Assembly: GCA_003550425.1 (NCBI GenBank)
Contig: PUKE01000115.1
Coordinates: 1 to 35,019 of the forward strand
Source of the DNA: Nitriliruptoria bacterium
Lineage (GTDB): Bacteria > Actinomycetota > Nitriliruptoria > Euzebyales > Egibacteraceae
DNA: 35,019 bases
Reading direction: 5' to 3'
The notes beneath the pieces were generated by a model. The model did no database searches and was not told the DNA's origin. It saw only the letters and a list, made by a program, of their open reading frames with translations. This document shows positions 6,148 to 34,972 of this stretch, in pieces. The translations under genes and the position numbers were made by a program. Numbering within the stretch: the first letter of the stretch is position 1; the number at the start of each line of letters is the position of its first letter.

Positions 6148-6271
6148 CGCGGGGGTTGCCCTCTCGTCGTCGGGACCGGTGCGGCGTGGGGCCGATCAGC
6201 GCCGCGCGCGCCGGTCGGGTCGGTCGCGGTCGGTTGGTGGGTCGTCGGGCGGGGTTCGGCGCCGCGCGCGG

Positions 6272-7810: not shown

Positions 7811-7878
7811 GTCGGTCCTGGTCCTTTCGCTGGCCCGCGGAGGTCGTGGTCGTCAGGGGTCGGAGGCGCGGGGTCGGG

Positions 7879-9903: not shown

Positions 9904-9924
9904 CGGTCCCGCCTCCCGCGCTCG

Positions 9925-10242: not shown

Positions 10243-10856
10243 CAGGGCGCTCCGATCTGCTGTCCGGCGTCCCCCGAGCCCGGCGCGCTGGTCACGTCGC
10301 TGGACGCTGGCGCGCGCTCGCGCTCGTCCCGCGCGTCATCGGGGCCCTCGTCGGGCAGTGGCCCCTCGCCCTCCTCGCGCCGCGCGAGGACCAGCGCGCC
10401 GATCAGGGCCACGGTCAGCAGGAAGCCCAGCACCATGAACGGGAAGGCCCACTGGACGTAGAGGACCTCGCCGAGGTCGGCCACCCGCACCGGCGTGACG
10501 TCCAGCGTGGCGTCCCCGACCGTGGTCACGATCAGCGTCATCAGCAGCGCGAACAGGCCGACGCTGACCGCCACGGCGAACTTGCGGTTCTCGTTGTGCT
10601 GGGCCATCGGGCCGATCGGGGCGCGCGTCAGCATCAGGCCGAACAGGATCAGCACGACCACGGCGCCGACGTACACCAGCACCTGGGCCCAGGCGAGGAA
10701 CTCCGCGCCCATCCACAGGAACGCGGCCGCGACAGCGACGAGGGCCACCACCAGGTAGAGGGCGGCGTGCACCACGTTGCGCGCGGTCACCACCAGCAGG
10801 GCGGCGGCACCGCCGAGGACCAGCGCACCGAGCATGAACAGGTCGGGCACGCTCAC
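10242..10856 (-). CDS. nuoJ2: Complex I subunit J, second complex
   Basis: A 204-residue membrane subunit with five predicted helices, including the conserved helix with [19 protein letters not shown]. The last ~40 residues form a hydrophilic acidic tail. The track ORF extends upstream through nuoI2. I place the start at GTG 10856 because it makes a GTGA overlap with the nuoI2 stop and gives the family's usual N-terminus ([15 protein letters not shown]). A second GTG two codons downstream is possible. Confidence 0.92.
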
Positions 10857-11806: not shown

Positions 11807-11851
11807 GTCAGGTCACCTCGTCGCAGCAGGGGGTCACAGCCAGCGCGCCGG

Positions 11852-12895: not shown

Positions 12896-12958
12896 GGGGC
12901 CTCTGGTGGGGTGCGCGGGGTCCCGCCGGACGGCTCGTCGGCGCGCAGCGTGCGCAGC

Positions 12959-14146
12959 CTAGCGGTCGACGTCGCCGACCACGAAATAGACGCTGCCCAT
13001 GATCGCGATCATGTCGGGCAGCATCGAGCCTTCCAGCAGATGCGGGATCATCTGGACGTTGTTGAACGACGGGGTGCGCATGCGCAGCCGGTAGGGCTGC
13101 TTGCCCCCGTCGCTGATCAGGTAGTAGCCGCCCTGGCCGAGCGGGTTCTCGGTGCGGACGTAGATGGCCCCCTCGGGCGCCTTGACCTGCTTGGGGGTCT
13201 TGGCGGCGAAGGGGCCGGCGGGCAGGTTGCCCAGGCACTGCTCGATGATGTCGCAGCTCGCGTCGATCCGGTCGAGCAGCACCTGGAAGCGGTCGTAGCT
13301 GTCGCCGTTCTCGGCGACCGGGACCGTGACGTCGACCTCGTCGTACTTGAGGTAGGGCTCGGTGACGCGGCTGTCCTCGGCGACCCCCGTGGCGTGCAGG
13401 GCCGGTCCCGTGACGCCGTAGTCGAGGGCGACCTCCGGCTCGAGGGCGCCCACGCCCTTGGTCCGCGCGTGGAAGATCTCATTGCCGAGCAGCAGGTCGC
13501 GGTACTCCTGGTTGCGGCGCCGCACCAGGGGCACGAGCTCCTCGGACGCCTTGAGGAAGCCCAGCGGCAGGTCGTCCTTGAGGCCCCCCCCCCGCGTGTA
13601 CGTGAAGTGCAGGCGGCCGCCGGTGGCCGACTCCATCAGGTTCTGGATGTCCTCGCGCTCGCGGAAGGCGTAGAACATCGGGGTGATCGCACCCAGCTCG
13701 AGCCCGAAGGAGGACACGAACATCAGGTGGTTCATGATGCGGTTCCACTCGCACATCATCGTGCGGATCCACTGGGCCCGCTCGGGGACCTCCAGCTCCA
13801 TCATCCGCTCGACGGCGAGGGCGACGCCCACCTCGTTGCAGAAGGCACTGAGCCAGTCGTGCCGGTTGACCAGCGCGATGATCTGCCGGTAGTCGCGGTG
13901 CTCGGCGAGCTTCTCGAAGGCGCGGTGCATGTAGCCGATGACCGGCTGGGCGCGCACGATGCGCTCGCCGTCGACGTCGATGACCACGCGCAGCACGCCG
14001 TGGGTGGCCGGGTGCTGCGGGCCGATGTTGAGGTTCATGTCCTGGGTCTGGAGGTCGCCGTCGCTGCGGACCTCCACCTGCAGGGACTCGCCGGGCGCGC
14101 CGGGGAGCACGCCGCCGGCCGCGTCAGCCGCGGCTGCCTGGGTCAT
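12959..14146 (-). CDS. nuoD2: Complex I subunit D, second complex, with Trp at the quinone Tyr position
   Basis: NuoD (49-kDa subunit) shapes the quinone headgroup site with NuoB. The 395-residue protein has the typical start of the fold ([13 protein letters not shown], with the conserved His) and ends in GDVDR as the family does. In the segment [13 protein letters not shown], Trp98 stands where NuoD1 has Tyr127 ([12 protein letters not shown]). A run of ten G residues encodes part of [12 protein letters not shown]. The ATG at 14146 overlaps the nuoC2 stop by four bases (ATGA). NuoD2 is a separate protein, not fused to NuoC as in Escherichia coli. Confidence 0.95.
13584..13593 (-). repeat. 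G10 homopolymer within nuoD2
   Basis: Ten consecutive C on the plus strand (G on the coding strand) encode the Gly-rich turn of NuoD2. Homopolymers of this length are prone to slippage and to sequencing error. Confidence 0.95.
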
Positions 14147-14925
14147 CGCGAGCCCTCCTCGCCGTGGTCGTCCTGCTGCTCGCCCTCACCGGCGCCCTCG
14201 CGCTCGGCTCGCTTGCGCCGACGCATCTCGGCGGCCTTCGCCTTGGCCCGCGCGACGCGGTCGGACGGGTCCTCGCCGGCCTCCGCTCCCGAGCCCGACG
14301 ACGCCAACGCGCCGCTGGCCTCGCTCGACCCGGCCCCCTTGGCCTCGCTCGACCCGGCCCCCTCGGCCTCGCTCGATCCGGCCCCCTTGGCCTCGGTCGC
14401 GGTGCCCTTGCCGCGCCGCTTGGGGGCACTGGACTCCTCCTTCTCGCCCGGCCACGGCTTGGCGAGCCGCGTGGTCAGCGCGAAGTCCTTGCGCAGTGGC
14501 CAGCCCTCGAAGTTCTCGACCGTCAGGATGCGCGGGGCCAGCCCGGGATGGCCCTCGAACACGATCCCGAACATGTCCCAGATCTCGCGCTCCTGCCAGT
14601 TGGCCCCGCGGTAGACGCTGGTGATCGACGGCAGGCGGGGGTCCTCCCGCCCACCGGGGGCGACCGCGCGCAGGTGCACCTGATGGCGCTGCTCAGGGCT
14701 GTAGAGGTGGGTGATCACGGCGAAGCCCTCGTCGCCGAGGTCCACGCCGGTCATGAAGTCGAAGAGGCGGCAGTCGAGGCGCGGGTCCTCCTTGCACACC
14801 CGCGCGGCGGTCACCAGCACGTCGGGGGCGACCGTGACGGTCGCCTGACCGTAGGCGATCTCGCGGTCCACGAGCCGATCGCCGAAGCGGTCGAGGAACA
14901 GGTCCGTGATCTCCTCGGGCGTCAC
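14143..14925 (-). CDS. nuoC2: Complex I subunit C, second complex, with repetitive basic C-terminal tail
   Basis: NuoC (30-kDa subunit) is part of the Q module. The core (residues 1-160) carries the family signature [19 protein letters not shown] followed by [18 protein letters not shown]. Residues 161-260 are an added tail: a Lys/Arg/Ser patch, three octapeptides of the GAGSSEA type (180-204), and then [20 protein letters not shown] (219-238). The last part closely resembles the basic end of each NuoI2 repeat. NuoC1 lacks it. The GTG start at 14925 has AAGGAG four nt upstream. It overlaps nuoD2 by four bases. Confidence 0.94.
14317..14388 (-). repeat. 24-bp tandem repeat, three copies plus a partial fourth, in nuoC2
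   Basis: Three units beginning GGCCTCGCTCGA on the plus strand lie head to tail, with one to two differences between them. They encode the octapeptide repeat GAGSSEA(K/E). A partial copy continues to about 14400. Copy number could vary between strains without changing frame. Confidence 0.9.
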
Positions 14926-14986
14926 CGTGCTCCTTGCCTGCCGCGGGGTCGTGCGGGCGGGGCGGGATCGAGGGCCCGCGCCCGGC

Positions 14987-15535
14987 TCACATCGGGTCGT
15001 CGAGCGGATGCCGCGTCGGGTCGCCGTCGCCGGCCACGACGGGGCGCCGGGCGTCGCGCGCGGCGTAGCGCTCCTTCAGCGACTCGTGCTCGATCTGCTG
15101 CTGGAGCGTCACGATCCCCTCGAGCAGCGCCTCGGGGCGCGGGGGGCAGCCGGGCACGTAGACGTCGACGGGCACGACCTGGTCCACGCCCTTGGTCACC
15201 GAGTAGCTGTCCCAGTAGGGCCCGCCGCAGTTGCTGCACGACCCGAAGCTGATGACGTACTTGGGCTCGGGCATCTGGTCGTAGAGCCGCTTGATCGCCG
15301 GCGCCATCTTGTCGGTGAGGGTGCCGGCCACGACCATGAGGTCGGCCTGTCGGGGCCCATGGGCGAAGGGGATGACGCCCAGCCGGATGAAGTCGTGGCG
15401 CGCCGCCGACGTCGCGATGAACTCGATGGCGCAGCAGGCGAGCCCGAAGTTCATCACCCACAGCGAGTACTTGCGGCCCCAGTTCAGCACGAACTTCAGG
15501 GGCTGGGGCACCTCGTGGCTCTCGATCAGGCCCAC
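14987..15535 (-). CDS. nuoB2: Complex I subunit B, second complex
   Basis: NuoB holds cluster N2, the last Fe-S cluster before quinone. All four ligands are present in the 182-residue protein: tandem Cys34-Cys35 ([10 protein letters not shown]), Cys100 (FGSCSNCGG) and Cys130 (VPGCPPRPE). The extra Cys103 in [10 protein letters not shown] is a form I associate with NuoB homologues outside the 14-subunit NADH type. I start it at GTG 15535, giving a 10-nt overlap with nuoA2 and the usual family N-terminus ([20 protein letters not shown]). The track ORF start at 15925 is far upstream in nuoA2. Confidence 0.95.
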
Positions 15536-15900
15536 TTCAGGACCCCCTTCTTGTACTCGTAGGGGAGGGTGAGGGTGACGAAGAACAGGAACACGAGCAT
15601 GACGCCCAGCATGAAGGGCTGGAGCTCGCCGGCCTCGCCGAGGACCACCGCCCAGGGGAAGATGAACAGGGTCTCCACGTCGAAGATGACGAAGAGGAAG
15701 GCGAAGAGGTAGTAGCGGATGTGGGTCTGCGACCACCCCTGCCCCACCGGGTCGATCCCGCACTCGTAGGTGGACAGCTTCCCGCCGTAGGAGCGGTCGG
15801 GTCGCACCAGTCGGCTCGCGGTGAACGCGACGGCCACCAGCAGGATGCCGGCGGCCAACAGCGCGAAGACCGTGGTGTAGGACTCGTAGTACTCGGTCAT
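15526..15900 (-). CDS. nuoA2: Complex I subunit A, second complex
   Basis: A 124-residue membrane protein with three helices. The signature [16 protein letters not shown] carries the conserved acidic residues near the quinone-site loop. I use the ATG at 15900 ([12 protein letters not shown]), not the track start at 15915, because AGGAGGAGC lies directly before it. It is the first gene of the second nuo operon, with a promoter candidate about 70-100 nt upstream. Confidence 0.95.
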
Positions 15901-15972
15901 GCTCCTCCTGGGCACGGCCGCCCAACCGGGCTCGCAGCGCAGCGCCGGCCTCCGGGCGTGACGGCGCGCATC

Positions 15973-17240: not shown

Positions 17241-18896
17241 CTACCCCGCGAACGTCGCCGCGCGCTCGGCGAGGTCGATCACGGCCGGGGGCAGCACGCC
17301 GAGGGCGATGACCCCGACGGCGGCCACCGAGACCGCGGTCGAGGCCGCCGACGCCGGCGGCACGGGGGCGTCCGCGAGGTGGGCGGGCTCGTCGTCCATG
17401 AACATCGCCACGATGACACGGATGTAGAAGTACGCAGCGATGACGCTGGAGATCACCAGCACCACGGCGAGCCACACCAGGCCCGCGTCGACGGCGGCGC
17501 GCACGATCCCGAACTTCGCGATGAACCCGACGGTCCCGGGGATCCCCGCCAGCGACAGCAGGAACAGGGCGAACATCACCGCCAGCGAGGGGGCGCTCTG
17601 CCACAGCCCGCGCAGGTCGGCCACGGCGATGGCCTTGCGCTGCCGGCGCTCGAGGATGGTCAGGATCCCGAAGGCCCCGAGGCTCATGATCGCGTAGGCC
17701 AGCAGGTAGAACAGGGTCGCGCCGGTGCCGATCTCGCTGACGGCGACCAGGCCGATCGCGGCGTAGCCGGCATGGGCCACCGCGGAGTAGCCGAGCATCC
17801 GCTTGAGGTCGTCCTGCACCACCGCCAGGGCCGCGCCGACCAGCATGGTGATCGCGGCCAGGACGCTGACGGCCGGCACCCAGATCCAGGCCAGCTGCTC
17901 CATGCCGCCGGTGAACACCCGGAGGAAGGCGGCGAAGGCCGCCACCTTCGTCGCCGCGGCCATGAAGGCGGTGACCGGCGTGGGCGCGCCCTGATACACG
18001 TCGGGGGTCCACATGTGGAACGGGACCAGGGCGACCTTGAAGGCGAACCCCACCAGCATCAGGGCGATGCCGGCGAACACCAGCCCGGCGGGCGTGCCCG
18101 GGTCGGACAGGGCGACCCCGGCCGTGGCGATGTGCGTGGTGCCGGTGGCCCCATAGACCAGGGCGATCCCGTACAGCAGGAACGCCGAGGAGAAGGCGCC
18201 GAGCAGCAGGTACTTGAACGCGCCCTCCTGGCTGGCCATGTCGCGCCGGGCCAGCCCGGTCATCACGTAGAGGGCGAGCGACAGGATCTCGACGGCCAGG
18301 AAGACCATGAGCAGGTCGGCGGCGCTGGCCAGCAGCGTCATCCCCGTCGCGGTGAACAGCAGCAGCGGGTAGTACTCGCCGCGGTGGATCCGGCGGTCCT
18401 GCAGGTAGGCGAAGCCGAGCAGGACGGTGAGGATGCCGGCGCCGGCGACCACGAAGCGCGTGAACAGCGCGACGCCGTCGACGGCGACCATGTCGGCCAG
18501 CAGGCTCTCGGTGCCCACCATCCCGCCGTTCGCGGCGGCCTGGTACTGCCAGGCGGCGATCCCGATGGTCGCGACGAGGGCCACGACGGTGAGCACCGCC
18601 CCCAGCAGCCGCGGCCGCGTGTGCAGCCACAGGGTCAGGGCCAGCTGCAGCACCCCGGCGCCGACCAGCAGGGCCACGATCTCGGGGGCCGCGCCCCCGG
18701 GGATGGCCGCCAGCGCGGCGATGCCCAGCAGGATCGCCAGGGCGATGACCGACGAGGTGCGCCGCCGCGGCCCGGCGGTGTCCAGCAGCAGGACCAGGAT
18801 CCCGGCGCCGAACAGGGTCAGCTCGGGGCTGATGGCCGCCCAGGGGATCTCGGGGATCTCCACGCCGGCGGGCAGCTGTTGAGCCAGCGCGCTCAC
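17241..18896 (-). CDS. nuoN: NADH-quinone oxidoreductase subunit N, first complex
   Basis: A 551-residue antiporter-like subunit. Key motifs are AVEILSLALYVMTGL (conserved Glu) and KVALVPFHMWTPDVYQGAP with the following Lys-containing helix. It starts at GTG 18896 and overlaps the nuoM stop by four bases (GTGA). The last core gene of the complete nuo operon, it is followed by the polyprenyl synthase. Confidence 0.96.
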   Translation of the reverse strand: MSALAQQLPAGVEIPEIPWAAISPELTLFGAGILVLLLDTAGPRRRTSSVIALAILLGIAALAAIPGGAAPEIVALLVGAGVLQLALTLWLHTRPRLLGAVLTVVALVATIGIAAWQYQAAANGGMVGTESLLADMVAVDGVALFTRFVVAGAGILTVLLGFAYLQDRRIHRGEYYPLLLFTATGMTLLASAADLLMVFLAVEILSLALYVMTGLARRDMASQEGAFKYLLLGAFSSAFLLYGIALVYGATGTTHIATAGVALSDPGTPAGLVFAGIALMLVGFAFKVALVPFHMWTPDVYQGAPTPVTAFMAAATKVAAFAAFLRVFTGGMEQLAWIWVPAVSVLAAITMLVGAALAVVQDDLKRMLGYSAVAHAGYAAIGLVAVSEIGTGATLFYLLAYAIMSLGAFGILTILERRQRKAIAVADLRGLWQSAPSLAVMFALFLLSLAGIPGTVGFIAKFGIVRAAVDAGLVWLAVVLVISSVIAAYFYIRVIVAMFMDDEPAHLADAPVPPASAASTAVSVAAVGVIALGVLPPAVIDLAERAATFAG

Positions 18897-20484
18897 CGGC
18901 TCACCTCCTCGTCGTCCACGGCGACCTCGTCGTCAGCAGGGGGGTCGATCACGAGCTCGGCGTCCGCGCCCGCGTCACCGGTCAGGTGCCGCAGCGTCGC
19001 GAGGTCCGCGTCCTCGGCGACGGCGACGACCTCGTCGACCAGGGCCTCGACCGTCGGGTTCACCCGCTCGTAGAGGGGGCCGGGGTAGACCCCGATGACC
19101 AGCATCAGCACCACGATGGGCGCCACGACCCCGACCTCGCGGGGGGTCAGGTCGGTGAGGCCGACCGCGCGCCCCTCGACCGGGCCGTGGAACATCCGCT
19201 GGTAGGCCCACAGCAGGTAGATCGCGGCGAGGATCACCCCGAGGGTGGCCAGCACGCCGGCCAGCGGCAGGGCCTCGAAGGTCCCGAGCAGGATCGGGAA
19301 CTCGCCGGTGAAGCCGTTGAGCCCTGGCAGGGCCAGCGAGCTCATCGCGGTCACGAGGAACAGCCCGCCGAACACCGGGGTGGCGCGCATGATCCCCGAG
19401 TACGAGGCGATCGCGCGGTCGTGCGTGCGGTCGTAGAGGAAGCCCACGAGCAGGAACAGCGCGCCCGTGGACAGCCCGTGGTTGACCATCTGGACCACGC
19501 TGCCCGCGGCCCCGGTCTGGTTCAGCGCGAAGGCGCCGAGGACCACGAAGCCGAGGTGGCTGACCGAGCTGTAGGCGATCAGGCGCTTGATGTCGCGCTG
19601 CACCATCGCCACCAGGGCCCCGTACAGCACGCCGATCACGCCCAGCGCGAGCATCCACGGCGCCAGGGTCAGCGTGGCCTCGGGGAAGTAGGGCAGCGAG
19701 AAGCGCAGGAAGCCGTAGCCGCCGATCTTCAGCAGCACCGCGGCCAGGATGACCGAGCCCACGGTGGGGGCCTCGGTGTGGGCGTCCGGCAGCCAGGTGT
19801 GGAACGGGAAGATCGGCACCTTGATGCCGAAGGCCGCGAAGAACGCGAGGAACAGCCACAGCTGCTCGGTGCCGGTCAGGTCCAGGCCGCGCAGCAGGTC
19901 GTAGTCGAAGCCCTGCGCGCCCGCGCTCCAGTACAGGTAGAGGATCGCGACCAGCATCAGCAGGCCGCCGATCAGCGTGTACAGGAAGAACTTGATCGCC
20001 GCGTAGCGCCGCTGCTTGCCGCCCCAGATGCCGATGAGGGCGTACATCGGCACGAGCATGGCCTCGAACAGGACGTAGAACAGGATCAGGTCCAGGGCCA
20101 GGAACACGCCGAGCATCGCCGCGCCCATCGCCATGAGGGACACGAAGAAGCCCTTGGCGCGCTCCTGCTGGTGCCAGGCCGCCAGCACCACCAGCGGCAT
20201 GAAGAACGCGGTCAGGCCCACCAGCAGCAGGCTGATGCCATCCACGCCGAGGCGGTAGGAGATGCCCCACTGGGGGATCCAGGCCGCCTGCTCCTCGAGC
20301 TGGAAGCCGGGCTGGCCCACCTCGAAGGCGGCGACGATCGCCACGGCGATCCCGAGGGTGACCAGGCTGCCGACGAGCGACACCGAGCGGATCGGCCCGA
20401 CCGCGTGGCGCGGCATCGCGGCCACGAGGACCGCGACCGCCGCCGGGACGGCGATCAGGAGGGTCAGCAGGGGCAGGTCCGCCA

Positions 20485-20485
<1 letters not shown>
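18893..20485 (-). CDS. nuoM: NADH-quinone oxidoreductase subunit M, first complex
   Basis: A 530-residue proton-pumping subunit with VLFEAMLVPMYALIGIWGG (conserved Glu) and KVPIFPFHTWLPDAHTEAP. The C-terminus carries an acidic hydrophilic tail of about 45 residues (PPADDEVAVDDEEVSR at the end) not seen in NuoM2. I choose ATG 20485 over the track start at 20494 because it overlaps the nuoL stop by one base (TGATG), like several other junctions here, and has a GGGGGG tract upstream. Confidence 0.94.
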
Positions 20486-22452
<1,967 letters not shown>

Positions 22453-22516
22453 GGTTGGATCCCTCGCATCACGGTTGTGCCTCCCCCTCGCGGTGGAGCG
22501 TCGTGGGTGGCGCGCC

Positions 22517-22822
22517 CTAGGCCCGCAGGGCACCGACGCCGTCGGCGTCGGTGGAGGCGCGCAGACGGAACAGGTTGACGACGAGCGCGAGCCCCACGAC
22601 CACCTCGGCCGCGGCGACGACGATCACGAAGAACGCCAGCACCTGGCCATCGAGGTTGGCCTGGATCCGCGCGAACGTCACGAGCGTGAGGTTGACGCTG
22701 TTGAGCATCAGCTCCACGCACATGAACATCACGATCACGCTGCGTCGGATGAGCACGCCGACCGCGCCGATGGAGAACAGGGCGGCGGCGAGGATCAGGT
22801 AGTAGCCCGCTGGGACGCTCAC
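22517..22822 (-). CDS. nuoK: NADH-quinone oxidoreductase subunit K, first complex
   Basis: A 101-residue protein with three membrane helices. The buried glutamates lie in [17 protein letters not shown] and [15 protein letters not shown]. The GTG start at 22822 overlaps the nuoJ stop by four bases (GTGA). Confidence 0.96.
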
Positions 22823-23589
22823 GTGCGCTCCTCCCCCTCCGCTCGTGACGGCTCGGCGTCGGGCCTCCCGTCGGGCCTCCCAGCGTCGGGCGCCCCGGCG
22901 TCGGGCGCCCCATCGCCTGGCGCGGCGGCGGCGTCGTCCTCACCGGGGCGCGCCGGCAGGACGGTCGAGCCGGGCTCGACGAGCTCCGCGGGATCCTCGC
23001 GCCGGCGCCCGAGGACGATCGCGCCGATCGCGGCGATGACCAGCAGGACGCTGGTGACCTCGAAGGCCCAGACGTAGTCGGTGAACAGCAGGAAGCCGAC
23101 CCCCCGCAGGTTGCCCTCGGCGGCGTTGACCGCCGCGAGCCCCAGGCAGGGCTCCCCGTCGCCGGTGCCCTCCAGGGCGGCCTCCGAGCCGCACACGCTG
23201 GCGTCGCCCAGGAAGGGACCGGCCGTGGCCGCGGCGAGGCTCACGAACAGCAGCACGCCCACGATGCTGGCCATGGTCTTCTGCCCCGGCACCCGTGCGG
23301 TGAGCGAGTCCTCGCGCGAGACGCCGAGCAGCATCAGCACGAACAGGAAGAGCACCACGATGGCGCCGGCGTAGACGATGACCTGGATGACCGCCAGGAA
23401 CTGCGCCTGGAGCACGGCGTACAGCACCGCGATCGCCAGGAAGTTGAGCACCAGCATGAGCGCTGCGTGCACCGCGTTGCGCATCAGGATCAGGCCGAGC
23501 GCCGAGCCGAGCGCGACCGCCCCGACGATGATGAACGTCCAGAGCTCGGCCGCGCCACCCTCGGTGGCCTGGGCGAGCACCGGGGTCAT
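22819..23589 (-). CDS. nuoJ: NADH-quinone oxidoreductase subunit J, first complex, with Ala/Pro/Asp-rich tail
   Basis: A 256-residue membrane subunit with the characteristic helix [19 protein letters not shown]. Residues up to about 205 form the membrane core. After GRRREDP there is a ~50-residue hydrophilic tail with repeated GAPDAG. The repeat is mirrored in DNA as two nearly identical 15-bp units. The loop with [14 protein letters not shown], holding two Cys, is unusual for NuoJ and may be periplasmic. The ATG overlaps nuoI by four bases. Confidence 0.94.
22883..22912 (-). repeat. 15-bp tandem repeat in the nuoJ tail
   Basis: Two adjacent 15-bp units beginning GCGTCGGGCGCCCC differ only at the last base. 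They encode GAPDA-type repeats, and more diverged 12-15-bp copies lie next to them (about 22857-22882). Confidence 0.85.
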
Positions 23590-24194
23590 CCCTGCCCACC
23601 CCCGGGACGCGGGTCGTCGAGCAGGTCGGTGGTCACGGGGTCACCGTGCTCCTCCGGCGCCGCGAGATCCGCCTGCCAGTGGCGCAGCGGGTCCTGGGCG
23701 GCGTGCCCCTGGTAGTAGGTCATCCCTCGGGCCTCGACCTCGTCGTCGGTGTGCGGTGGCGGCTTGGCGCCCTCGGGCAGCGGCGCGAGCAGCATCTCCT
23801 TGGTGAAGATGAAGTCCTCGCGCTTGTCCGCGGACAGCTCGTACTCGTTGGTCATCGTGAGCGCGCGCGTCGGGCACGCCTCGATGCACAGGCCGCAGAA
23901 GATACAGCGCAAGTAGTTGATCTGGTAATCGGCACCGTAGCGCTCGCCCGGCGAGAAGCGCGCCTGGGGGGTGTTGTCCTCGCCGCGCACGAAGATGGCG
24001 TCGGCCGGGCAGGCCCAGGCGCACAGCTCACAGCCGACGCACTTCTCGAGGCCGTCGGGCCAGCGGTTGAGGACGTGGCGCCCGTGGAAGCGGGGCGCGG
24101 TGTCCCGGCGGGTGTCGGGGTACTCGGTGGTGGACGAGGGCCGGAACATCGACTTGAAGGTCAGGCCGAAGCCCTTGCGCAGCGCGTTGAACAC
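23586..24194 (-). CDS. nuoI: NADH-quinone oxidoreductase subunit I, first complex
   Basis: A 202-residue ferredoxin-like subunit with both 4Fe-4S sites complete: Cys 52/55/58/62 ([12 protein letters not shown]) and Cys 97/100/103/107 ([12 protein letters not shown]). The C-terminus has a moderate extension (about 150-202) without the Lys/Ala motif of NuoI2. It starts at GTG 24194 after GAGAGGAA. Confidence 0.96.
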
Positions 24195-24206
24195 GGTCGG
24201 TTCCTC

Positions 24207-25493
24207 TCACCGCTCGCGATCGTCAGGGTCGTCGCCGCCGACGTCGTCGGGCGGCTCGGCCGGGCGGCGCGACGGCGTGGCGCCGACGAGCTCCCGTGCC
24301 TCCACGCGCTGCACGCGCTGGGATGCGGGCACGGCGGGCTCCTCCTCGGCCTGCTCCCGCCGCAGGGACGGCAGGATCAGGAGCACGAGGGCCACGACGC
24401 CGACGACGCCGAACAGCGTGAGGAGCTGGCCCATGCCGAGCGCTTGCAGCTCGTCCTGGCCGACCACGATCACGCCGGTCAGCATGACCCAGACCAGGCC
24501 GAAGGGCAGCAGCACCTTCCAGCCGAGGTCCATGAGGCGGTCGTAGCGGAAGCGCGGCAGGGTCCCGCGCAGCCAGATGAAGATGAACAGGAAGCCGGCC
24601 GTCTTGGCCATGAAGTACAGGGTCGGCAGGATCGCCTGCAGCCAGTCCGGGCCGAACAGCGGACCGCCGGGGCCGCCGAAGAACAGCGTGACCATGACGG
24701 CCGAGAACGTGAACATGTTCATGAACTCGCCGAGGTAGAACATCGCGAACTTCGCACCCGAGTACTCGGTGTGGAAGCCGCCGACGATCTCCCCCTCGCC
24801 CTCGGGCAGGTCGAAGGGCGGGCGCTGGGTCTCGGCCACCGCGGTCAGGAAGAAGATCGCGAAGGCGAAGACCTGCGGCAGCACGTTCCAGGCGGGGATC
24901 GTGATCGGGCCCAGCTCGGCGAGGGTGCCGCTCTGGGCCTCGACGATCTCCGAGACCTGCAGGGTGCCGTTCCACACGAACACCGCGGCGAAGGCCAAGG
25001 CCATGCCCAGCTCGTAGGAGACCATCTGGGCGCTGGACCGCACCCCGCCCAGCAGCGGGTACTTCGACCCCGAGGCCCAGCCGGCGAGCACGATGCCGTA
25101 CACGCCGAGGGAGCTCATCGCGAACACCCACAGCAGGCCGATCTCGGGATCCCAGACCTGCAGGGTGACCTCGCGGCCGAACAGCTCGACGGTCCCGCCG
25201 AAGGGGATCACCGCGAACATCACCAGCGCCGTGGTGGCGCTGATCACCGGGGCGGCGATGAACACCGCGCGATCGGCGATCTTGGGGGTGAGGTCCTCCT
25301 TGAAGAACAGCTTGATGCCGTCGGCGAGCGTCTGGACGATGCCCATCGGGCCGAGCCGGTTGGGCCCCACCCGCGTCTGCATCTTGGCCACCACGCGGCG
25401 CTCGCCCCAGATGAGCAGCGCGGTGCTGAGCAGCCACAGGACGAACGCCAGGTTGGCGACGATCAGCGCCGAGACGAAGTCTGGCCCCTCCAT
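24207..25493 (-). CDS. nuoH: NADH-quinone oxidoreductase subunit H, first complex
   Basis: A 428-residue membrane subunit with canonical loops ERRVVAKMQTRVGPNRLGP (31-49) and AETQRPPFDLPEGEGEIVGG (220-239), both forming the quinone entry region. The last ~55 residues form a charged hydrophilic tail (from SLRREQAEEEP to DDPDDRER) that is absent in NuoH2. Its ATG overlaps the nuoG stop by one base. Confidence 0.96.
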   Translation of the reverse strand: MEGPDFVSALIVANLAFVLWLLSTALLIWGERRVVAKMQTRVGPNRLGPMGIVQTLADGIKLFFKEDLTPKIADRAVFIAAPVISATTALVMFAVIPFGGTVELFGREVTLQVWDPEIGLLWVFAMSSLGVYGIVLAGWASGSKYPLLGGVRSSAQMVSYELGMALAFAAVFVWNGTLQVSEIVEAQSGTLAELGPITIPAWNVLPQVFAFAIFFLTAVAETQRPPFDLPEGEGEIVGGFHTEYSGAKFAMFYLGEFMNMFTFSAVMVTLFFGGPGGPLFGPDWLQAILPTLYFMAKTAGFLFIFIWLRGTLPRFRYDRLMDLGWKVLLPFGLVWVMLTGVIVVGQDELQALGMGQLLTLFGVVGVVALVLLILPSLRREQAEEEPAVPASQRVQRVEARELVGATPSRRPAEPPDDVGGDDPDDRER

Positions 25494-27964
25494 CAGGCGG
25501 ACTCCTCGAGCTCGTCGGCGGGCGCCGCGGCCACGGTGACGCGCAGGCGCCCGGTCGGGTCGTCAGGGTCGGCGAGGGTGCCCACCGGTGCCTCCAGCGC
25601 GTTGCCGGGCAGCACCACGGAGCCCTCCACCACGTGCGGGCGCACCGCGAGCGGCAGGGTCACGGCGCCGCCAGGCCCGCGGACCTCGACGGTGTCGCCG
25701 TGGCCCACCCCGGCGCGCTCGGCGTCGGCGGGGGCCATCACCGCCGAGGGGGTGCGAGCGGTGGCGAGGAGGTCGTCGGCGCCGGCCAGCAGGGTGGAGC
25801 GCTCGGCGAGCAGCAGGTCGGCGACCACCGCCTCCAGCTCGCCCTCCTCCAGCGGCGGCACCGGTGCGGTGGCCAGGGGCAGCGGCTCGGACTCGAGGGC
25901 GGCGAGGCGCTCGGCCACCGAGGCCCGGCGGTCCATCAGGGGCGCGGCCTCGGCGCGGACGTCGCTGGCGGTCTCCCAGCCGAGGTCCGCGCCCAGCGCG
26001 CGCGCCAGCTGCCGCGTGATGTCCCAGTCCTGCTGCTGCAGCCGCTGGGGCGGCAGCGCCTGCGGGAACGGCTGGCGCCGCCCCTCCCACGTGGTGAAGG
26101 ACCCCACGCGCTCCTGCGGCGCGGCGGCGGGCAGCAGCACGTCGGCGTAGGCCGTGGTCTCGGTCCGCATCAGGTCCTGGACGATCACCGTGTCGGCGGC
26201 CTCGAGGGCGGCGCGTGCCAGGCGCGGGTCCTCGAAGTCGCGCACGGGGTCGACCCCGACCAGGTACAGCGCCTTGATCTCGCCGGCGGCGGCCGCCTCG
26301 AGGATGCCGCGGGCGTCGCGGCCGGGCGCGGTGGGCACGTGGTCCCAGGCGTCGGCCACGGGGCCCGCCTGCGACTGCGGGCGCCCACCGGGCAGCAGCC
26401 CGGGCAGCAGGCCCGCGTCGAGGGCGCCGCGGGCGCCGTTGCGCCGCGGCACCCAGGCGAAGGCGGCGTCGCGGCGCTGGGCGAGCATCGCCGCCGAGGG
26501 CAGCGCGCCCGGCGAGCGCGACAGGCGCTCGCCGGCCAGCACCACCACCGAGGTCGCCGCGCCCTCGCCGTCGCCACCCAGGGCCGCGGCGACCTCGTCC
26601 TGCAGCTCGCCGGTGGTCGCCCCGGTCGCGAGGGCCGTCAGCACGCGCCCCTCGTCGCCGGCGTCGGTGCGCACCCAGCGCCAGGCGATCTCGGACATCG
26701 TGCCCAGCGTCGGGCCGACCACGACGATCCGCTGACCGTGCTTGCGCCACGCCTTGCGCAGGCGCAGGTGGAGGATCGGGACCTCCTCCTCGGGGTCCAG
26801 CCCGGCCACGACCACCACGTCGGCGTGCTCGACGTCCTCGTAGGTGGGCCCGGGCGCCCCGGCGACGGCCGCGAGCACCTCGCGCTCGTCGTCGGTGCGC
26901 GGCCACAGGCGGAAGTCGACGTTGTCGGTGCCGACCGCGTCGCGCGCGAAGCGGCTCACCGCGTAGGCGTCCTCGTCGGTCAGGCGCCCGCCGGTGAGGA
27001 CCCCGACCGCGTCGCCGCCCCCGGCGTCCAGCGCGGCCTGGAGGCCCTCCGCGGCGGTGGTCAGCGCGCCGTGCCAGCTGACCGGCTCCAGCGCGAGCAG
27101 CGAGCCACGCGCCTGGGGCTGCTGGAGGCGCTCGGGGTGGCTGACCCACGGGAAGCCGAAGCGGCCCTTGTCGCAGTTCCACATCTCGTTGACGGCCATG
27201 TTGTCGGCGGCCAGCTGCCGCTCGATGCCGCCCCGTCGCGTGTCCACCCGCAGGTTGCAGCCCGCCGAGCACTGGTTGCAGACCCCGCCGGTGGAGCGCA
27301 GGTCGAACGGGCGGCTCTTGAAGCGATAGGAGGTCGAGGTCAGCGCGCCGACCGGGCAGATCTGGATGACGTTGCCCGAGAAGTAGCTGTGGTAGGGCTC
27401 GTCCTCGTAGACGGCGACCTGCTCCAGGGCCCCGCGCTCGAACAGCTCGATGAACGGGTCGCCCGAGATCTCCTGGGAGAACCGCGTGCAGCGCGCGCAG
27501 AGCACGCAGCGCTCGCGGTCGAGCAGGATCTGCGGGCTGATCGGGATGGGCTTCTCGTAGCGGCGCTTCTGGTCGATGAAGCGGCTGTCGGGCGGGCCGT
27601 GGGCCAGCGCCTGGTCCTGCAGCGGGCACTCGCCGCCCTTGTCGCACTGCGGGCAGTCCAACGGGTGGTTGATCAGCAGGAACTCCAGCTGACCCCGCTG
27701 GGCCACCGCCGCCATGTCGCTGGTGAGGTGGGTCTTGACGACCATGCCGTCGGTGGCCTTGGTCGAGCACGAGGTCATGGGCTTGCGCATGCCCTCGATC
27801 TCGACGATGCACTGCCGACAGGCCGCGACCGGCTCGAGCAGCGGGTGGTCGCAGAACCGGGGGATGGTGATGCCCAGCCGCTCGGCGGCGCGGATGACCA
27901 GGGTGCCCTCGGGCACCTGCACCTCCGTGCCGTCGATCGTGACCGTGATCTGATCGTCGCTCAT
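25493..27964 (-). CDS. nuoG: NADH-quinone oxidoreductase subunit G, first complex
   Basis: An 823-residue Fe-S subunit of the NADH module. In order, it has a 2Fe-2S site (Cys 38/49/52/66), a His-Cys 4Fe-4S site (His100, Cys 104/107/113), a CVLCARC 4Fe-4S site (Cys 153/156/159 with 203), and the N7 site CNQCSAGC with a distal Cys (229/232/236/264). A degenerate molybdopterin oxidoreductase domain fills the rest. N7 is retained, as in Escherichia coli and Thermus but unlike many species. It starts at ATG 27964, 55 nt after nuoF. Confidence 0.95.
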   Translation of the reverse strand: MSDDQITVTIDGTEVQVPEGTLVIRAAERLGITIPRFCDHPLLEPVAACRQCIVEIEGMRKPMTSCSTKATDGMVVKTHLTSDMAAVAQRGQLEFLLINHPLDCPQCDKGGECPLQDQALAHGPPDSRFIDQKRRYEKPIPISPQILLDRERCVLCARCTRFSQEISGDPFIELFERGALEQVAVYEDEPYHSYFSGNVIQICPVGALTSTSYRFKSRPFDLRSTGGVCNQCSAGCNLRVDTRRGGIERQLAADNMAVNEMWNCDKGRFGFPWVSHPERLQQPQARGSLLALEPVSWHGALTTAAEGLQAALDAGGGDAVGVLTGGRLTDEDAYAVSRFARDAVGTDNVDFRLWPRTDDEREVLAAVAGAPGPTYEDVEHADVVVVAGLDPEEEVPILHLRLRKAWRKHGQRIVVVGPTLGTMSEIAWRWVRTDAGDEGRVLTALATGATTGELQDEVAAALGGDGEGAATSVVVLAGERLSRSPGALPSAAMLAQRRDAAFAWVPRRNGARGALDAGLLPGLLPGGRPQSQAGPVADAWDHVPTAPGRDARGILEAAAAGEIKALYLVGVDPVRDFEDPRLARAALEAADTVIVQDLMRTETTAYADVLLPAAAPQERVGSFTTWEGRRQPFPQALPPQRLQQQDWDITRQLARALGADLGWETASDVRAEAAPLMDRRASVAERLAALESEPLPLATAPVPPLEEGELEAVVADLLLAERSTLLAGADDLLATARTPSAVMAPADAERAGVGHGDTVEVRGPGGAVTLPLAVRPHVVEGSVVLPGNALEAPVGTLADPDDPTGRLRVTVAAAPADELEESA

Positions 27965-28019
27965 CGCTTCCTCGCTGTCGGGCGGCGCCTCGGGGCGCGG
28001 GCGGACCGCGCGCGGCGGG

Positions 28020-29357
28020 TCACGCGCCCACGAGCTGCTCGGGTCGTCCGTGCCCGCTGTTGCGGTCCACCGCGTCGGTGTGCGCCTCGATGCCGTCGGG
28101 CAGCCGGCCGTGCGCGATCAGGTGCTCGTACTCGTCGCGGAAGAGCGCGAGGCTCGACTTGATGGGGCTCACGGCGCCATCGCCGAGCGCGCAGAACGAG
28201 CGGCCGAAGATGTTGTCGCAGATCTCGTCGAGCAGGTCGAGGTCCTCGCTCCTGCCGCGCCCCTCCAGGAGGCGGTCGTAGATCTGGGACAGCCAGAAGG
28301 TGCCCTCGCGGCAGGGCGTGCACTTGCCGCAGGACTCGTGCTCGTAGAACTTGGTCCAGTTCCGGGCGGCCTCGACGACGCTGGTGCGGTCGCTGAACAT
28401 CTGCATGGCGGCCGTGCCCAGCAGGCTGCCGGCCTCCATGATCGCCTCGAAGTCCATCGGGGTGTCGGCGTGCGCGCCGGTCAGCAGCGGGGTGGAGGAG
28501 CCGCCGGGGGTCCAGAAGCGCAGCTCGCGGCCGTCGAGCATCCCCTGACAGGAGACCTCGACGATCTCCCGGGCCGTCGCGCCCATCGGCCACTCGTAGT
28601 TGCCGGGGCGGTTGACCTCGCCGGAGACGCAGAACAGCTTCGGGCCAGGCGACTTCTCGGTGCCCATCGACCGGTACCAGTCCACGCCGTGCTGGACGAT
28701 GTGGGGCACGTTGGCGATGGTCTCGACGTTGTTGACCTGGGTGGGCATGCCATAGACGCCCGCCTGGGCGGGGAAGGGCGGCCGCAGTCGGGGCTGGCCG
28801 CGCCGGCCCTCCAGTGAGTCCAGGAGCGCGGTCTCCTCGCCGCAGATGTAGGCGCCGGCCGCGTAGTGCAGGGTCACGTCGACGTTGACGCCGCTGCCCT
28901 TGATGTCCTTGCCGAGGTAGCCGGCCTCGTAGGCCTCGGCGATGGCGTGCTCGAGGCGCACCCCCGGCCACAGGTACTCGCCGCGCAGGTAGAGGAACGC
29001 GCGCTCGGACTCCAGGGCGTAGCAGGAGACGATGATCCCCTCGAGGAGCTGGTGGGGGTCGCGCTCCATCAGCTCGCGGTCCTTGAAGGTGCCGGGCTCG
29101 CCCTCGTCGGCGTTGATGACGAGGTAGGTCGGCTTGCCGGTGCCCCGCGGGGTGAAGCCCCACTTGACGCCGGTGGGGAAGCCGGCGCCGCCGCGCCCGC
29201 GCAGGCCCGCGTCCTTGACCTGGCTGACCAGGTCGGTGGGCGCCTGGTCGAACGCCGTGGCGAGCGACTGGTAGCCCCCGGTGCGCTCGTAGCCGGCCAG
29301 GGTGTGGGCGTCGGGGACGTCGTAGCGCTGGGTGAGGACGCTGATGGGCTCGCTCAC
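28020..29357 (-). CDS. nuoF: NADH-quinone oxidoreductase subunit F, first complex (NADH/FMN subunit)
   Basis: This 445-residue flavoprotein oxidises NADH. It has the glycine-rich GLRGRGGAGFPTGVKWGF (51-68), the FMN-binding NADEGEPGTFKDRE (82-95), GAYICGEETALLDSLEG (168-184), and the N3 4Fe-4S site Cys 343/346/349 (SCGKCTPCREG) with Cys389. The track ORF starts in nuoE. I use GTG 29357, which overlaps the nuoE stop by four bases (GTGA) and gives the family N-terminus. There is no second copy in the EFG-less operon. Confidence 0.96.
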   Translation of the reverse strand: MSEPISVLTQRYDVPDAHTLAGYERTGGYQSLATAFDQAPTDLVSQVKDAGLRGRGGAGFPTGVKWGFTPRGTGKPTYLVINADEGEPGTFKDRELMERDPHQLLEGIIVSCYALESERAFLYLRGEYLWPGVRLEHAIAEAYEAGYLGKDIKGSGVNVDVTLHYAAGAYICGEETALLDSLEGRRGQPRLRPPFPAQAGVYGMPTQVNNVETIANVPHIVQHGVDWYRSMGTEKSPGPKLFCVSGEVNRPGNYEWPMGATAREIVEVSCQGMLDGRELRFWTPGGSSTPLLTGAHADTPMDFEAIMEAGSLLGTAAMQMFSDRTSVVEAARNWTKFYEHESCGKCTPCREGTFWLSQIYDRLLEGRGRSEDLDLLDEICDNIFGRSFCALGDGAVSPIKSSLALFRDEYEHLIAHGRLPDGIEAHTDAVDRNSGHGRPEQLVGA

Positions 29358-30289
29358 GAGGTGCCCTCCTGGTCGTCGTCGGCCGCGTCGTCGGCGGCGT
29401 CGTCGGCCGGGCCCCCGGTGGCGCCCGCGCCGGGATCGGTGGGCTCCCAGTCGGGGTCGGTGGTGGGGAACTCCCGCGCCTGGGGGCCCGCGCCGGACTC
29501 GACGGCGCTCGGGTCCTGGCCGGCGTCGCGCACCGCCTGGCGGGCGCGCTCGCGCTCGGCCTCCTGCCCGGCGCTGAAGGTGGGCTCGATCGTGACCGGC
29601 GTCACGCCGGGCCCGGCCTCGGGGATCGGCACCGCGCCATCGTCGGCGCGGGCCTGGTCGCTGGCACGGCCCGCCTGGGCCACCACCGCCTCGCCGTCGG
29701 GCGCCGGGCCCAGGCCCGCGAGCCGGTGCTGGACCGCGCGGATGCCCTCGGGCGGGAAGCCGCGCGTGGGGGTGGGGCGCTCCCCGGCCGCGACGCGGTC
29801 CACGAGGTCGGCGGCCGAGGCCGGCGTCTGGCCCTCGTAGTTGAGGTAGTCGATCGTGACCACCGGGGCGCCCTCGCAGTTGCCCAGGCACTCGGCGTGC
29901 TCGAGGGTGAACCGGCCGTCCTCGGTGGTGCCGTTGTGGCCCACGCCCAGGCGCTCGGAGAGGTGGCGGTACACCGCGGTGCCCCCGCGCACGTGGCACG
30001 CGAAGTTGGTGCACACGCTGACGAGGTGCTCGCCCATCGGCTCGCGCTTGTACATCGAGTAGAACGTCGCCACGGCGCCGACCTCGGCCTTGGTCAGCCC
30101 GCACAGCTCGGCGCACAGCGTGACGCCGGCGTCGGAGACGTAGCCGTGGGCGTGCTGCACGAGGTGCAGCAGGGGCAGCAGCGCGGAGCGCTTGACCGGA
30201 TAGCGGCCGACGATCTCCTCTGCCTTGGCGCGGACCTCGGCGGGGATCTCTGGTGCGGGGCCGCTCCCGTTGGTGCTCGGGTCGCTCAC
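29354..30289 (-). CDS. nuoE: NADH-quinone oxidoreductase subunit E, first complex, with acidic tail
   Basis: A thioredoxin-like 2Fe-2S subunit. Ligands are Cys 93/98 (VCTNFAC) and Cys 134/138 (ECLGNC), forming cluster N1a. The core ends near residue 180, but the protein is 311 residues. The extra ~130 residues are low in hydrophobics and end in an acidic stretch ([11 protein letters not shown]). This tail is not needed for the fold and looks disordered. The GTG start overlaps the nuoD stop by four bases. Confidence 0.95.
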
Positions 30290-31698
30290 CGGTCGACTCC
30301 TCCCATCACGGGGTCAAGGCTGGCGACGGCGACGATGACGTCGGCGACGAGCAGCCCGCGCGTGGCCGTGGGCAGCGCGCCGACGTGGATGAAGCTCGGG
30401 TCGCGGACCTTGACGCGGTAGGGCTTGTTGGTGCCGTCGGAGGTCATGTGGTAGCCGAGCTCGCCGCGCGGGCTCTCCACCGGCGCGTACACCTGGCCGG
30501 CTGGGACCGTGAAGCCCTCGGTGACCAGCTTGAAGTGGTGGATGAGCGACTCCATCGACTGGCCCATGATCTTGGAGATGTACTCCTGGGCGTTGCCGAT
30601 GCCGTCGGGCCCCATGGCGAGCTGGGCGGGCCAGGCGATCTTCTGGTCCTCGACCATGACCGGGCCGTCGCCGACCTGCTCGAGGCGCTCGAGCGCCTGC
30701 TCGATGATTCGCACCGACTGGCGCGCCTCCTCGATGCGCAGCAGGTAGCGCGCGTAGGCGTCGCCGTCCTCGCCGGTGATGACCTCGAAGTCGTAGGTCT
30801 CGATCCCGCAGTAGGGATCGGTGACGCGCACGTCGTAGGGGATCCCGGCGCTGCGCAGCCCGGGCCCGGTGACCCCGAGGTCCAGGCACTGCTCGGCGGT
30901 GAGGACCCCCACGCCCTTGAGGCGCTCGATCCAGATGGGGTTCTCGGTGAGCAGGTCCTCGAACTCCTGCAGGCGGTTGGGGATCTCGGTGATGACGGTG
31001 TTGGCCCGCTCCACGAAGTCCTCGGGGACGTCCTGGGCCACGCCGCCGGGGCGGATGTAGGCGTGGTTCATCCGCAGCCCCGTGACCTGCTCGAACAGGT
31101 CGAGCACGGTCTCGCGCTCACGGAAGCCGTAGATCATCGCCGTGGTCGACCCGAGCTCCATCCCGCCGGTGGCCAGCCAGACCATGTGGCTGGAGATGCG
31201 GTTCAGCTCGGTCATGATCACGCGGATGATCTGGGCGCGCTCGGGGATCTCCTCGGTGATGCCGAGCAGCTTCTCGACCCCGAGGCAGTACGCCAGCTCG
31301 TTGAACAGCGGCGAGAGGTAGTCCATTCGGGTGACGAACGTGACCCCCGGCACCCAGGGCCGGAACTCGACGTTCTTCTCGATCCCGGTGTGGAGGTAGC
31401 CGATGATCGGCTCGTTGTCGACGACCGTCTCGCCGTCGAGCGACAGCCGCATCCGCAGCACCCCGTGGGTCGAGGGGTGCTGCGGCCCCATGTTGAGGAC
31501 CATGAGGTCGTCCTCGACGGCGTCGGGGAGCTCCTCCCAGTCGCCGCCCACGAGGGTGTACTCCGCGGGCTCGCCGCGCGCGGGGACGGTCTCGCCCTCC
31601 TGGGTGGCCACCGCCGAGGAGGGCTCGGTGATGGGCTCCTCCTCGCCCCAGGGGGCGCCGGTCTCGGGCGGTCGGTCGCTGTGCTGGTCGCTGCTCAT
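30286..31698 (-). CDS. nuoD: NADH-quinone oxidoreductase subunit D, first complex
   Basis: A 470-residue Q-module subunit with an N-terminal extension of ~65 residues that is acidic and looks disordered. It then has the canonical [13 protein letters not shown], the quinone Tyr127 in [12 protein letters not shown], and [12 protein letters not shown], and ends in GGVDR. It starts at ATG 31698. A 102-nt gap separates it from nuoC; the gap holds only a short 12-bp direct repeat. Confidence 0.96.
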
Positions 31699-32468: not shown

Positions 32469-33113
32469 TCAGCGCTCCTGCGACGGGCCGGGCTCGGCGC
32501 CGCTCGGGGTGTCGCGCCGACCCGACCGGGTGCCGCTGCGAGGGGCGAACTGGGCGGCGGCCACGCCCTCCACGCTCGGATCGGGGTCGATCCAGCCGGT
32601 GCGGCGACGGAAGTCCTCCATCGACTCGCCCGGCTTGGGGCGCTCGACGAACTGCTCGCTCTTGACCTTGTCCTGCAGCTTGAGGATCCCGTCCATCAGC
32701 ATCTCGGGCCGTGGCGGACAGCCGGGGACGTACATGTCGACCGGCACCACGTGGTCCACGCCCTGCACGATCGCGTAGTTGTTGAACATGCCACCGCTGG
32801 AGGCGCACACCCCCATCGACAGCACCCACTTGGGCTCGGGCATCTGGTCGTACAGGTTGCGCACCACCGGGGCCATCTTCTGGCTGACGCGACCGGCGAC
32901 GATCATGAGGTCGGCCTGCCGCGGGCTGGCGCGGAAGACCTCCTGGCCGAAGCGGGCCAGGTCGTAGTGGCTGCCACCAGTCGACATCATCTCGATCGCG
33001 CAGCAGGCGAGCCCGAACGTCGCGGGCCACATGCTGCCGGCGCGCCCCCAGTTGACGAACTTCTCAACGGAGGTGAGCAGGATGCCGTTGGGGAGCTTGG
33101 CCTCTAGTCCCAT
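32469..33113 (-). CDS. nuoB: NADH-quinone oxidoreductase subunit B, first complex
   Basis: A 214-residue subunit holding cluster N2: Cys37-Cys38 ([10 protein letters not shown]), Cys103 (MGVCASSGG) and Cys132 (VPGCPPRPE). The C-terminal ~45 residues are a hydrophilic tail rich in Ser, Arg and Gly. The ATG at 33113 overlaps the nuoA end by ten bases. Confidence 0.96.
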
Positions 33114-33469
33114 TCCAGGCCTCCCTTGCGGAGGACGTAGTAGTAGCTCTCGAACAGCAGGAGGATGAAGATGGCCATCGCGGCGACGGCGAACCAGCCG
33201 AGGTCGCGGAGCACCACCGCCCAGGGGTAGAGGAAGACCGCCTCGACGTCGAAGATGATGAACAGCATCGCGACGAGGTAGAACTTCACGGGGAAGCGGC
33301 TGCCGGCGATCTCGGTCTCAGGGCTGGTGATGATCCCCGACTCGTAGGCCATGGCCTTGACGGGCCCGGGCTTCCACGGACCCAGGCGCGCTGCCACGAT
33401 CAGCGAGACGCCGACGAACCCGACGGCGATCGCGAACAACAGCAGCAGCGGGAGGTACTCGGCGAGCAC
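33104..33469 (-). CDS. nuoA: NADH-quinone oxidoreductase subunit A, first complex
   Basis: A 121-residue protein with three membrane helices and the signature [17 protein letters not shown]. It starts at GTG 33469 with GGAGG about 10 nt upstream. It is the first gene of the complete nuo operon, with a promoter candidate 60-90 nt upstream. Confidence 0.96.
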
Positions 33470-33585: not shown

Positions 33586-34902
33586 TCATGCCGACGGCAC
33601 CGCCCGCGACAGCCCGTTGATGATGCGGTCGATCCCGTCGGCGCTGCGCCGGTCGACCAGGTGGGCCATGAAGCGGAAGACGAAGCGCATGAGCGCTGGG
33701 CGCGGCATCCCGTAGTCGCGGCACAGCCGCATGATCGTCGGGTTGCCCATCACCGCGGCGAACACGATGCCCAGCCGGTAGTAGCCGCCCCACTGCTCGG
33801 TCACCGCGCGGGGGTAGCCCTGCAGCAGCGCGTCGTCGCTGTGCGCCAGCGCGAGGTCGGCGGCCTCGGCGGCCATCTCGCCGGCCTCGATGGCGTAGCT
33901 GATGCCCTCCCCGTTGAAGGGGTTCACCATCCCGGCCGCGTCGCCGACCAACAGGGCGCCGCCGCGCACCATCGGGCGGCGATTGTGCGACATCGGCAGG
34001 CCGGCGCTCTTGGTGCGGCCATGGGAGGTCTCGGCGCTGATGCCCCACTCGGCGGGCATCGAGGCGATCCACTCCTCGAGGATGCCCCGGTAGCTCACGC
34101 CGCGGAAGTGGCGGGAGCTGTCGAGCTGGCCCCAGCCGACGTTCACGGTGCCGTCGTCCAGCGGGAAGATCCAGCCGTAGGCCGGCAGGAGCTTGCCGTT
34201 GGAGGTGATCTCGAGGAACCCCTCCATCATGTCGAGGTCGGGGCGCGCGTGGTCGTGGTACGCGCGGATGGCCACGCCCATCGGGCGCTTGCGATCCCGG
34301 TGCAGGCCCAGGGCGATGCCCAGGCGCGAGGAGTTGCCGTCGGCCACGATGACGATCGGCGCGCGCACGGTGCCCGTGGCGGTCGTGCCGTCCTCGCGCC
34401 GCTGCCGCCAGGTCACCCCGGCCACGCGCTCCTGACTGCTGGTCAGCCACACCGGGCCGGTGACCTCGGTGCCCTCCCAGAGCGTGGCGCCACCCGCGAC
34501 CGCGTGCTGGGCGAGCGTGTGGTCGAACAGCTCGCGCGTGGCGGTCACCGAGTGGGCGGGCCAGTCGGGGAGCTCGGGCCAGGGCAGGTCCAGCACCGTT
34601 CGCCCGCCATACATCCGCAGGCCGCGCTGGCGGTGCCACCCCGGGACGCGTCCCTCTGCCTCCTGATGCAGGCCCAGGCGCTGCAGCGCTCGCACCGCGC
34701 GGGGCGTCAGGGCGTCGCCGCAGACCTTGTCGCGGGGGAACGTGGCCTTCTCGATCACGACCACGTCGCGCCCGGCGTCGGCCAGGAACCGTGCCGTCGC
34801 GGCGCCGGCCGGCCCCGCGCCGACGACGACGACGTCGGCGTGCGTCACCGGCTCCGGCGCCGTCTGCGCGGTCGGCGCGCCAGTCCCGTCGGTGTCGGTC
34901 AC
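33586..34902 (-). CDS. Geranylgeranyl-reductase-family FAD protein (probable menaquinone side-chain reductase)
   Basis: A 438-residue flavoprotein. The N-terminal Rossmann FAD motif is VVVGAGPAGAATARFL (26-41), followed by KVCGDALTPRAVRALQ and, in the C-terminal half, GDAAGMVNPFNGEGISYAIE, the second FAD motif of this family. Relatives reduce isoprenoid double bonds; the mycobacterial member MenJ saturates one unit of the menaquinone tail. The location directly before nuoA supports a menaquinone role over archaeal-type lipids or chlorophyll. I choose GTG 34902 (VTDTDGTG) because GGGAGGG lies five nt upstream; the track start at 34983 lies upstream of the likely promoter. Confidence 0.88.
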   Translation of the reverse strand: MTDTDGTGAPTAQTAPEPVTHADVVVVGAGPAGAATARFLADAGRDVVVIEKATFPRDKVCGDALTPRAVRALQRLGLHQEAEGRVPGWHRQRGLRMYGGRTVLDLPWPELPDWPAHSVTATRELFDHTLAQHAVAGGATLWEGTEVTGPVWLTSSQERVAGVTWRQRREDGTTATGTVRAPIVIVADGNSSRLGIALGLHRDRKRPMGVAIRAYHDHARPDLDMMEGFLEITSNGKLLPAYGWIFPLDDGTVNVGWGQLDSSRHFRGVSYRGILEEWIASMPAEWGISAETSHGRTKSAGLPMSHNRRPMVRGGALLVGDAAGMVNPFNGEGISYAIEAGEMAAEAADLALAHSDDALLQGYPRAVTEQWGGYYRLGIVFAAVMGNPTIMRLCRDYGMPRPALMRFVFRFMAHLVDRRSADGIDRIINGLSRAVPSA

Positions 34903-34954
34903 CCGAACCCTCCCTGATTCTCCGCCCGTGCGGCGATCCGGTGCCTCCACGGCG

Positions 34955-34972
34955 TTGTGAACGGTATCACGA
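34955..34972 (-). promoter_or_regulatory. Rex-like operator overlapping a -10 box upstream of the reductase/nuo cluster
   Basis: On the minus strand the 18-bp sequence TCGTGATACCGTTCACAA matches the Rex consensus TTGTGAA-N4-TTCACAA at 12 of 14 defined positions, with one half-site perfect. It spans TACCGT, a possible -10 box (34961-34966), and lies 53-70 nt before the start codon. Rex is the actinobacterial and firmicute repressor that senses NADH/NAD+, so this target is biologically fitting. No good -35 was found. A rex gene is not in the window. Confidence 0.6.

Follow-up and report, generated by a model that had tools for sequence, protein, structure and literature searches.

A predicted Rex operator ahead of a MenJ-like reductase and the complex I genes in an uncultured Nitriliruptoria bacterium

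Rex is an NADH/NAD+-sensing repressor. In Streptomyces avermitilis, Rex operators with the consensus TTGTGAANNNNTTCACAA have been described at nuoA1-N1, atpI, cydA1, rex and wblE; the targets of Rex there include wblE, ndh2, nuo and atp, and Rex control of nuo has already been shown in Streptomyces (PMC5355995). The locus described here lies in a window of 35,019 nucleotides, the whole stretch of DNA analysed, from a Nitriliruptoria bacterium. It has the same palindrome, the same spacing and the same target operon, nuo, as the S. avermitilis system and a similar score; the features are collected in Table 1.

Table 1. Features of the predicted Rex-controlled locus (positions in the window).
Feature	Position	Strand	Basis
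Rex operator (predicted)	34955..34972	-	12 of 14 consensus positions; unchanged in sister genome; kept upstream of orthologues
Candidate -10 box TACCGT in operator, TGA before (extended -10 form)	34961..34966	-	Inferred; only TANNNT within 45 bp either side, in window and sister genome
Reductase ribosome-binding site GGGAGGG	34908..34914	-	Read from sequence; conserved in sister genome
Geranylgeranyl-reductase-family flavoprotein, MenJ-like menaquinone reductase	33586..34902	-	TIGR02032 above cut-off; start from alignment
nuoA, first complex I gene	33104..33469	-	NF005922, 131.9 bits; 116 bp after reductase
nuoB	32469..33113	-	NF005012, TIGR01957
nuoD	30286..31698	-	NF004739, TIGR01962; nuoC between nuoB and nuoD
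Remainder of first nuo cluster, nuoE through nuoM (E, G, H, I, J, L, M matched)	18893..30289	-	NCBIfam matches

The palindrome TTGTGAACGGTATCACGA, which reads TCGTGATACCGTTCACAA in the transcribed (minus) orientation, agrees with TTGTGAA-N4-TTCACAA at 12 of the 14 specified positions, as a sequence-only reading of the window had claimed. No other match with up to three mismatches exists on either strand of the window, and dinucleotide shuffles lead one to expect 0.04 such matches there. With a matrix built from the relatives' sites, the window's genus being excluded, the site scored 20.9 bits, the highest value in the window and one that was reached at none of 1.4 million positions of the mononucleotide-shuffled window; a chance origin was ruled out by the shuffles. 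The second-best window match (17.2 bits, position 24707 within nuoH) was set aside as coding. The matrix scoring proposed in the sequence-only reading places the site level with the footprinted S. avermitilis operators, which gave 20.2 (rex), 20.1 (nuoA1) and 21.2 bits (atpI) with the same matrix.

At two or fewer mismatches, the motif occurs at just five places in the 2.9 Mb assembly, two of them on contigs of 39–47% GC as against the organism's own 72–76%. Matches in the same genome on contigs of 22–57% GC were ignored as probable foreign DNA. Contigs C28, C36, C59, C84, C90 and C261 show such stretches of 22–57% GC alongside those of 72–76%, and these probably represent foreign DNA in the bin despite a low contamination estimate.

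The reductase gene most likely starts with the GTG at 34902, behind the ribosome-binding site GGGAGGG; the sister genome aligns a TTG behind the same ribosome site. The operator therefore appears to be intergenic, 53–70 bp ahead of the likely start codon. The mechanical open reading frame start at 34983, which would place the operator inside the gene, is unsupported by the sister genome, and a coding coincidence was rejected given the reductase start at 34902. The reductase of the nearest named relative, a Nitriliruptoria MAG (L081, G001), is 87% identical, and other near relatives are MAGs labelled Egibacter, Egibacteraceae and Euzebyaceae.

Reductase orthologues were collected from 60 relatives and from named genomes, two sets that share several genomes. 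Within the class Nitriliruptoria, 39/49 orthologous reductase loci carry the site at two or fewer mismatches (11 of them perfect) and 43/49 at three or fewer; among named actinobacterial loci the corresponding figures are 55/80 and 57/80. Mononucleotide-shuffled upstream regions gave no site at two or fewer mismatches. Furthermore, across 22 relatives the motif was far above a reversed control, most genomes having 2–9 matches against 0. Conservation in relatives, to which the sequence-only reading had looked, is thus evident, the palindrome being kept upstream of orthologues and often perfect there.

The relatives' consensus is TYGTGAA-N4-TTCACRA, in which the inner AA/TT is fixed at 95–98%. 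One of the two 'mismatches' of the window site is a normal variant, positions 2 and 17 accepting T/C and A/G respectively, and the sole unusual base is the A at position 12, where 95–98% of relatives have T. Because this conserved base is broken, the window copy (20.9 bits) falls below the lowest training site (22.3 bits) and ranks, by its matrix score, among the weak members of the Rex operator family.

Sites of the CRP/FNR type, TGTGA-N6-TCACA, have the half-sites TGTGA/TCACA in common with the Rex motif, and the palindrome could in principle belong to that family, with control of the cAMP type instead of by NADH. Taken alone, the window copy even fits CRP better than Rex: it matches 9 of the 10 positions of TGTGA-N6-TCACA, the deviant base falling in the free spacer of CRP. 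However, the inner AA/TT pair, which CRP does not need, is 95–98% fixed in the relatives, and TGTGA-N6-TCACA at two or fewer mismatches occurs in the window no more often than expected by chance. Moreover, no Crp HTH was found above cut-off in the genome (assembly about 95% complete), its one cNMP-binding domain sits in a 960-residue open frame, and the site co-occurs with rex. The CRP reading was rejected on the column conservation, the absence of a CRP above cut-off and the association with rex, and we regard it as extremely unlikely.

A single intact rex is present in the genome, on contig C85, with both Pfam domains. Its alignment with Thermus Rex structures spans most of its length, and both the RKDLSxxGSYGTRGVGY stretch and a glycine-rich NAD motif are retained. 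Neither of the observations that the sequence-only reading named as refuting, a genome without rex or a palindrome that is not conserved ahead of orthologues, was therefore made. The neighbours of rex encode a glutaredoxin-like protein and a siroheme-synthase-type NAD-binding protein. About 32 kb separates rex from the reductase in the sister genome, where both are on one contig.

Site and rex occur together across genomes. In one set of genomes compared, all 22 that bear the operator have rex and five of the nine operator-less reductase–nuoA loci are without it (Fisher p = 0.0007), an association weakened by kinship, as four of the five rex-less genomes are Propionibacteriaceae. G022 (96% complete) likewise has neither rex nor site, and nuoA was not found directly behind its reductase. 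Exceptions occur in both directions: G004 and G043 have the site with no rex found in drafts that are 83–88% complete, and L087 (G031), L093, L111 and L121 have rex without a site at the reductase locus. Genomes that have lost rex tend to be without the site. At the 30 rex loci of the class (L001 and L052–L080), no Rex-like site was found at three or fewer mismatches, and rex seems not to be self-regulated in the Nitriliruptoria, unlike in Streptomyces.

The minus strand of the operator holds TGATACCGT in the extended -10 form TGN-TANNNT, and this is the only TANNNT in the surrounding DNA of the window and the sister genome (Table 1). In both genomes it is the deviant operator base that creates this -10-like box. 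The proposal that the palindrome covers a likely -10 box stands in the narrow sense that TGATACCGT lies inside the operator; it did not extend to a full sigma-70 promoter, none being called there. When 87 upstream regions were aligned, TANNCT boxes clustered 8–22 bp before the operator, an arrangement that would place the transcription start under the operator. A smaller group, drawn mainly from the family and order of the window, has a TANNNT that begins about 33–35 bp after the first base of the operator, and TTCACR would therefore serve as the -35. Footprints in S. avermitilis show both arrangements, the former at cydA1 and the latter at nuoA1, atpI and rex (PMC5355995). The window and the sister genome have neither arrangement; the -10 box of this genus probably lies under the operator itself.

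The broken inner pair might alternatively mark a decayed operator, an ancestral Rex site whose useful binding was abolished in this genus and whose DNA was kept as a promoter. The window copy does score lowest relative to the training set, and the only -10-like box is made by the deviant base. Against this, the sister genome has the same 18 operator bases although the DNA immediately upstream has diverged, and rex is intact in both genomes, the two copies being 80% identical. Likewise, the same change is tolerated in the footprinted atpI operator of S. avermitilis, TTGTGATACGGTTCACGA, which is 3/18 bases off the window's minus strand and has the GTGAT deviation in common with it. We therefore consider decay very unlikely and retain the reading of a Rex operator.

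Behind the reductase, a gap of 116 bp precedes nuoA, and further nuo genes then follow on the same strand. A more restricted unit, in which the Rex operator governs the reductase only and nuoA-N, with a promoter of its own, is not under the site, would find room for that promoter in these 116 bp. Simple scans of the gap found no terminator- or promoter-like site, although high-GC promoters can be missed in this way. Furthermore, where reductase and nuoA are separate, the operator is at nuoA. In the Euzebya-like genomes G024 and G029, the reductase lies away from nuo and is itself without a site, and operators are found before nuoA and between nuoD and nuoE. In Streptomycetaceae (L120, L139, L146 and L155) the operator likewise lies before nuoA, and in L146 and L155 it has exactly the sequence footprinted at S. 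avermitilis nuoA1. The operator therefore goes with nuo wherever the two are separate, and a unit limited to the reductase is unlikely. The proposed control at the reductase gene with readthrough into nuo agrees with the tendency of site and rex to be lost together, with the site at nuoA where the genes are apart, and with the terminator-free gap. A motif scan of the window confirmed that no comparable site precedes nuoA or nuoA2. Several genomes besides the sister genome have menG (UbiE family) ahead of the operator; in the sister genome, whose preceding gene can be read, the order is menG, operator, reductase, and menG would therefore be outside the controlled unit.

Two further observations concern the nuo genes. 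The Euzebya-like second Rex-like site in the nuo operon, between nuoD and nuoE, is at L216:1501-1518 (G029) and G024:C13:147202-147219. A second nuo cluster at 4657-15915 of the window, in which nuoA2, C2, D2, H2 and antiporter-type subunits were matched, is without a Rex-like site.

Other candidate Rex sites were seen in the class. Sites at whiB1 were found in the same genome as the window (L013, three mismatches), in G001 (L215) and in G011 (L205), and the class also has sites at ndh2 and nuoA; whiB1, ndh2 and nuoA are Rex targets in S. avermitilis. Ahead of NDH-2 type NADH dehydrogenase genes, paired Rex-like sites stand 22–23 bp apart, or two helix turns (L204:1501-1540, L209:1501-1540 and L201:1501-1541), and this spacing suggests cooperative binding. 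A site in G029 follows a Glycos_transf_4 gene, at what seems, as judged by eye, to be the beginning of the atp operon. A one-mismatch site runs across the start of a gene for a dihydrolipoamide-dehydrogenase-like flavoprotein in both genomes of the window's genus (L002:1501-1518 and L186:1501-1518) and could be partly a coding coincidence. Another Rex-like site is kept beside an alpha-amylase-family gene in both genomes of the window's genus (L004:1501-1518 and L213:1501-1518); in the window's genome, it also stands beside an Rv2466c/DsbA-like gene (L004).

Taken together, the palindrome is very probably a Rex operator, predicted to control a transcript that runs from the MenJ-like reductase into nuo. 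In the scheme that we infer, a Rex dimer would sit on the operator when NADH is low and block the promoter of this reductase-first transcript. As NADH rises, Rex would let go, complex I and the quinone reductase would be made, and NADH would be oxidised. That the enzyme reshapes the menaquinone tail, as the sequence-only reading had it, depends on its likeness to MenJ: the wider geranylgeranyl-reductase model is passed, and the MenJ equivalog model NF045655, although the best match (E = 6e-72), is not. More tentatively, and with somewhat less than even confidence, we suggest that the promoter of the window's genus has shifted into the operator, the consensus-breaking base making the -10 box TGATACCGT so that the same bases would be contested by repressor and polymerase, and that more widely the reductase and complex I form one old, NADH-controlled actinobacterial unit that ties quinone-tail saturation to the level of complex I.

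The evidence suggests that Rex control of complex I is widespread in actinobacteria and reaches the uncultured Nitriliruptoria, often by way of a unit whose first gene encodes a menaquinone-type reductase; in genomes that have reductase and nuoA at separate places, it is nuoA that carries the operator. A link of quinone side-chain reduction to NADH oxidation can thus be tested directly in cultivable relatives of the same layout, such as Actinopolymorpha, Kribbella or Frankia. A Rex site at the reductase is well supported but extends an already known control system in an essentially ordinary way. As far as the literature consulted shows, the novelty lies in how conserved the reductase-first placement is and how broadly it occurs; an earlier prediction of the target is possible.

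The locus departs from the described systems in several respects. The nuo operator of S. avermitilis lies directly before nuoA, whereas that of the window lies before the MenJ-like reductase, and S. avermitilis rex has an operator of its own, in contrast to the rex genes of the Nitriliruptoria class, at which none was found. The Rex operators of Staphylococcus aureus, TTGTGAAWWWWTTCACAA, have the same palindrome core as the window site, but their spacer is A/T-rich where that of the window is G/C-rich, and the S. aureus targets are genes of fermentation and nitrate respiration (PMC2883068). Sites of the CRP/FNR type have the same half-sites and spacing as the window site but need no inner AA/TT. 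Finally, the window reductase matches the Mycobacterium MenJ model (NF045655) over its full length, well under the equivalog cut-off (243 as against 700 bits).
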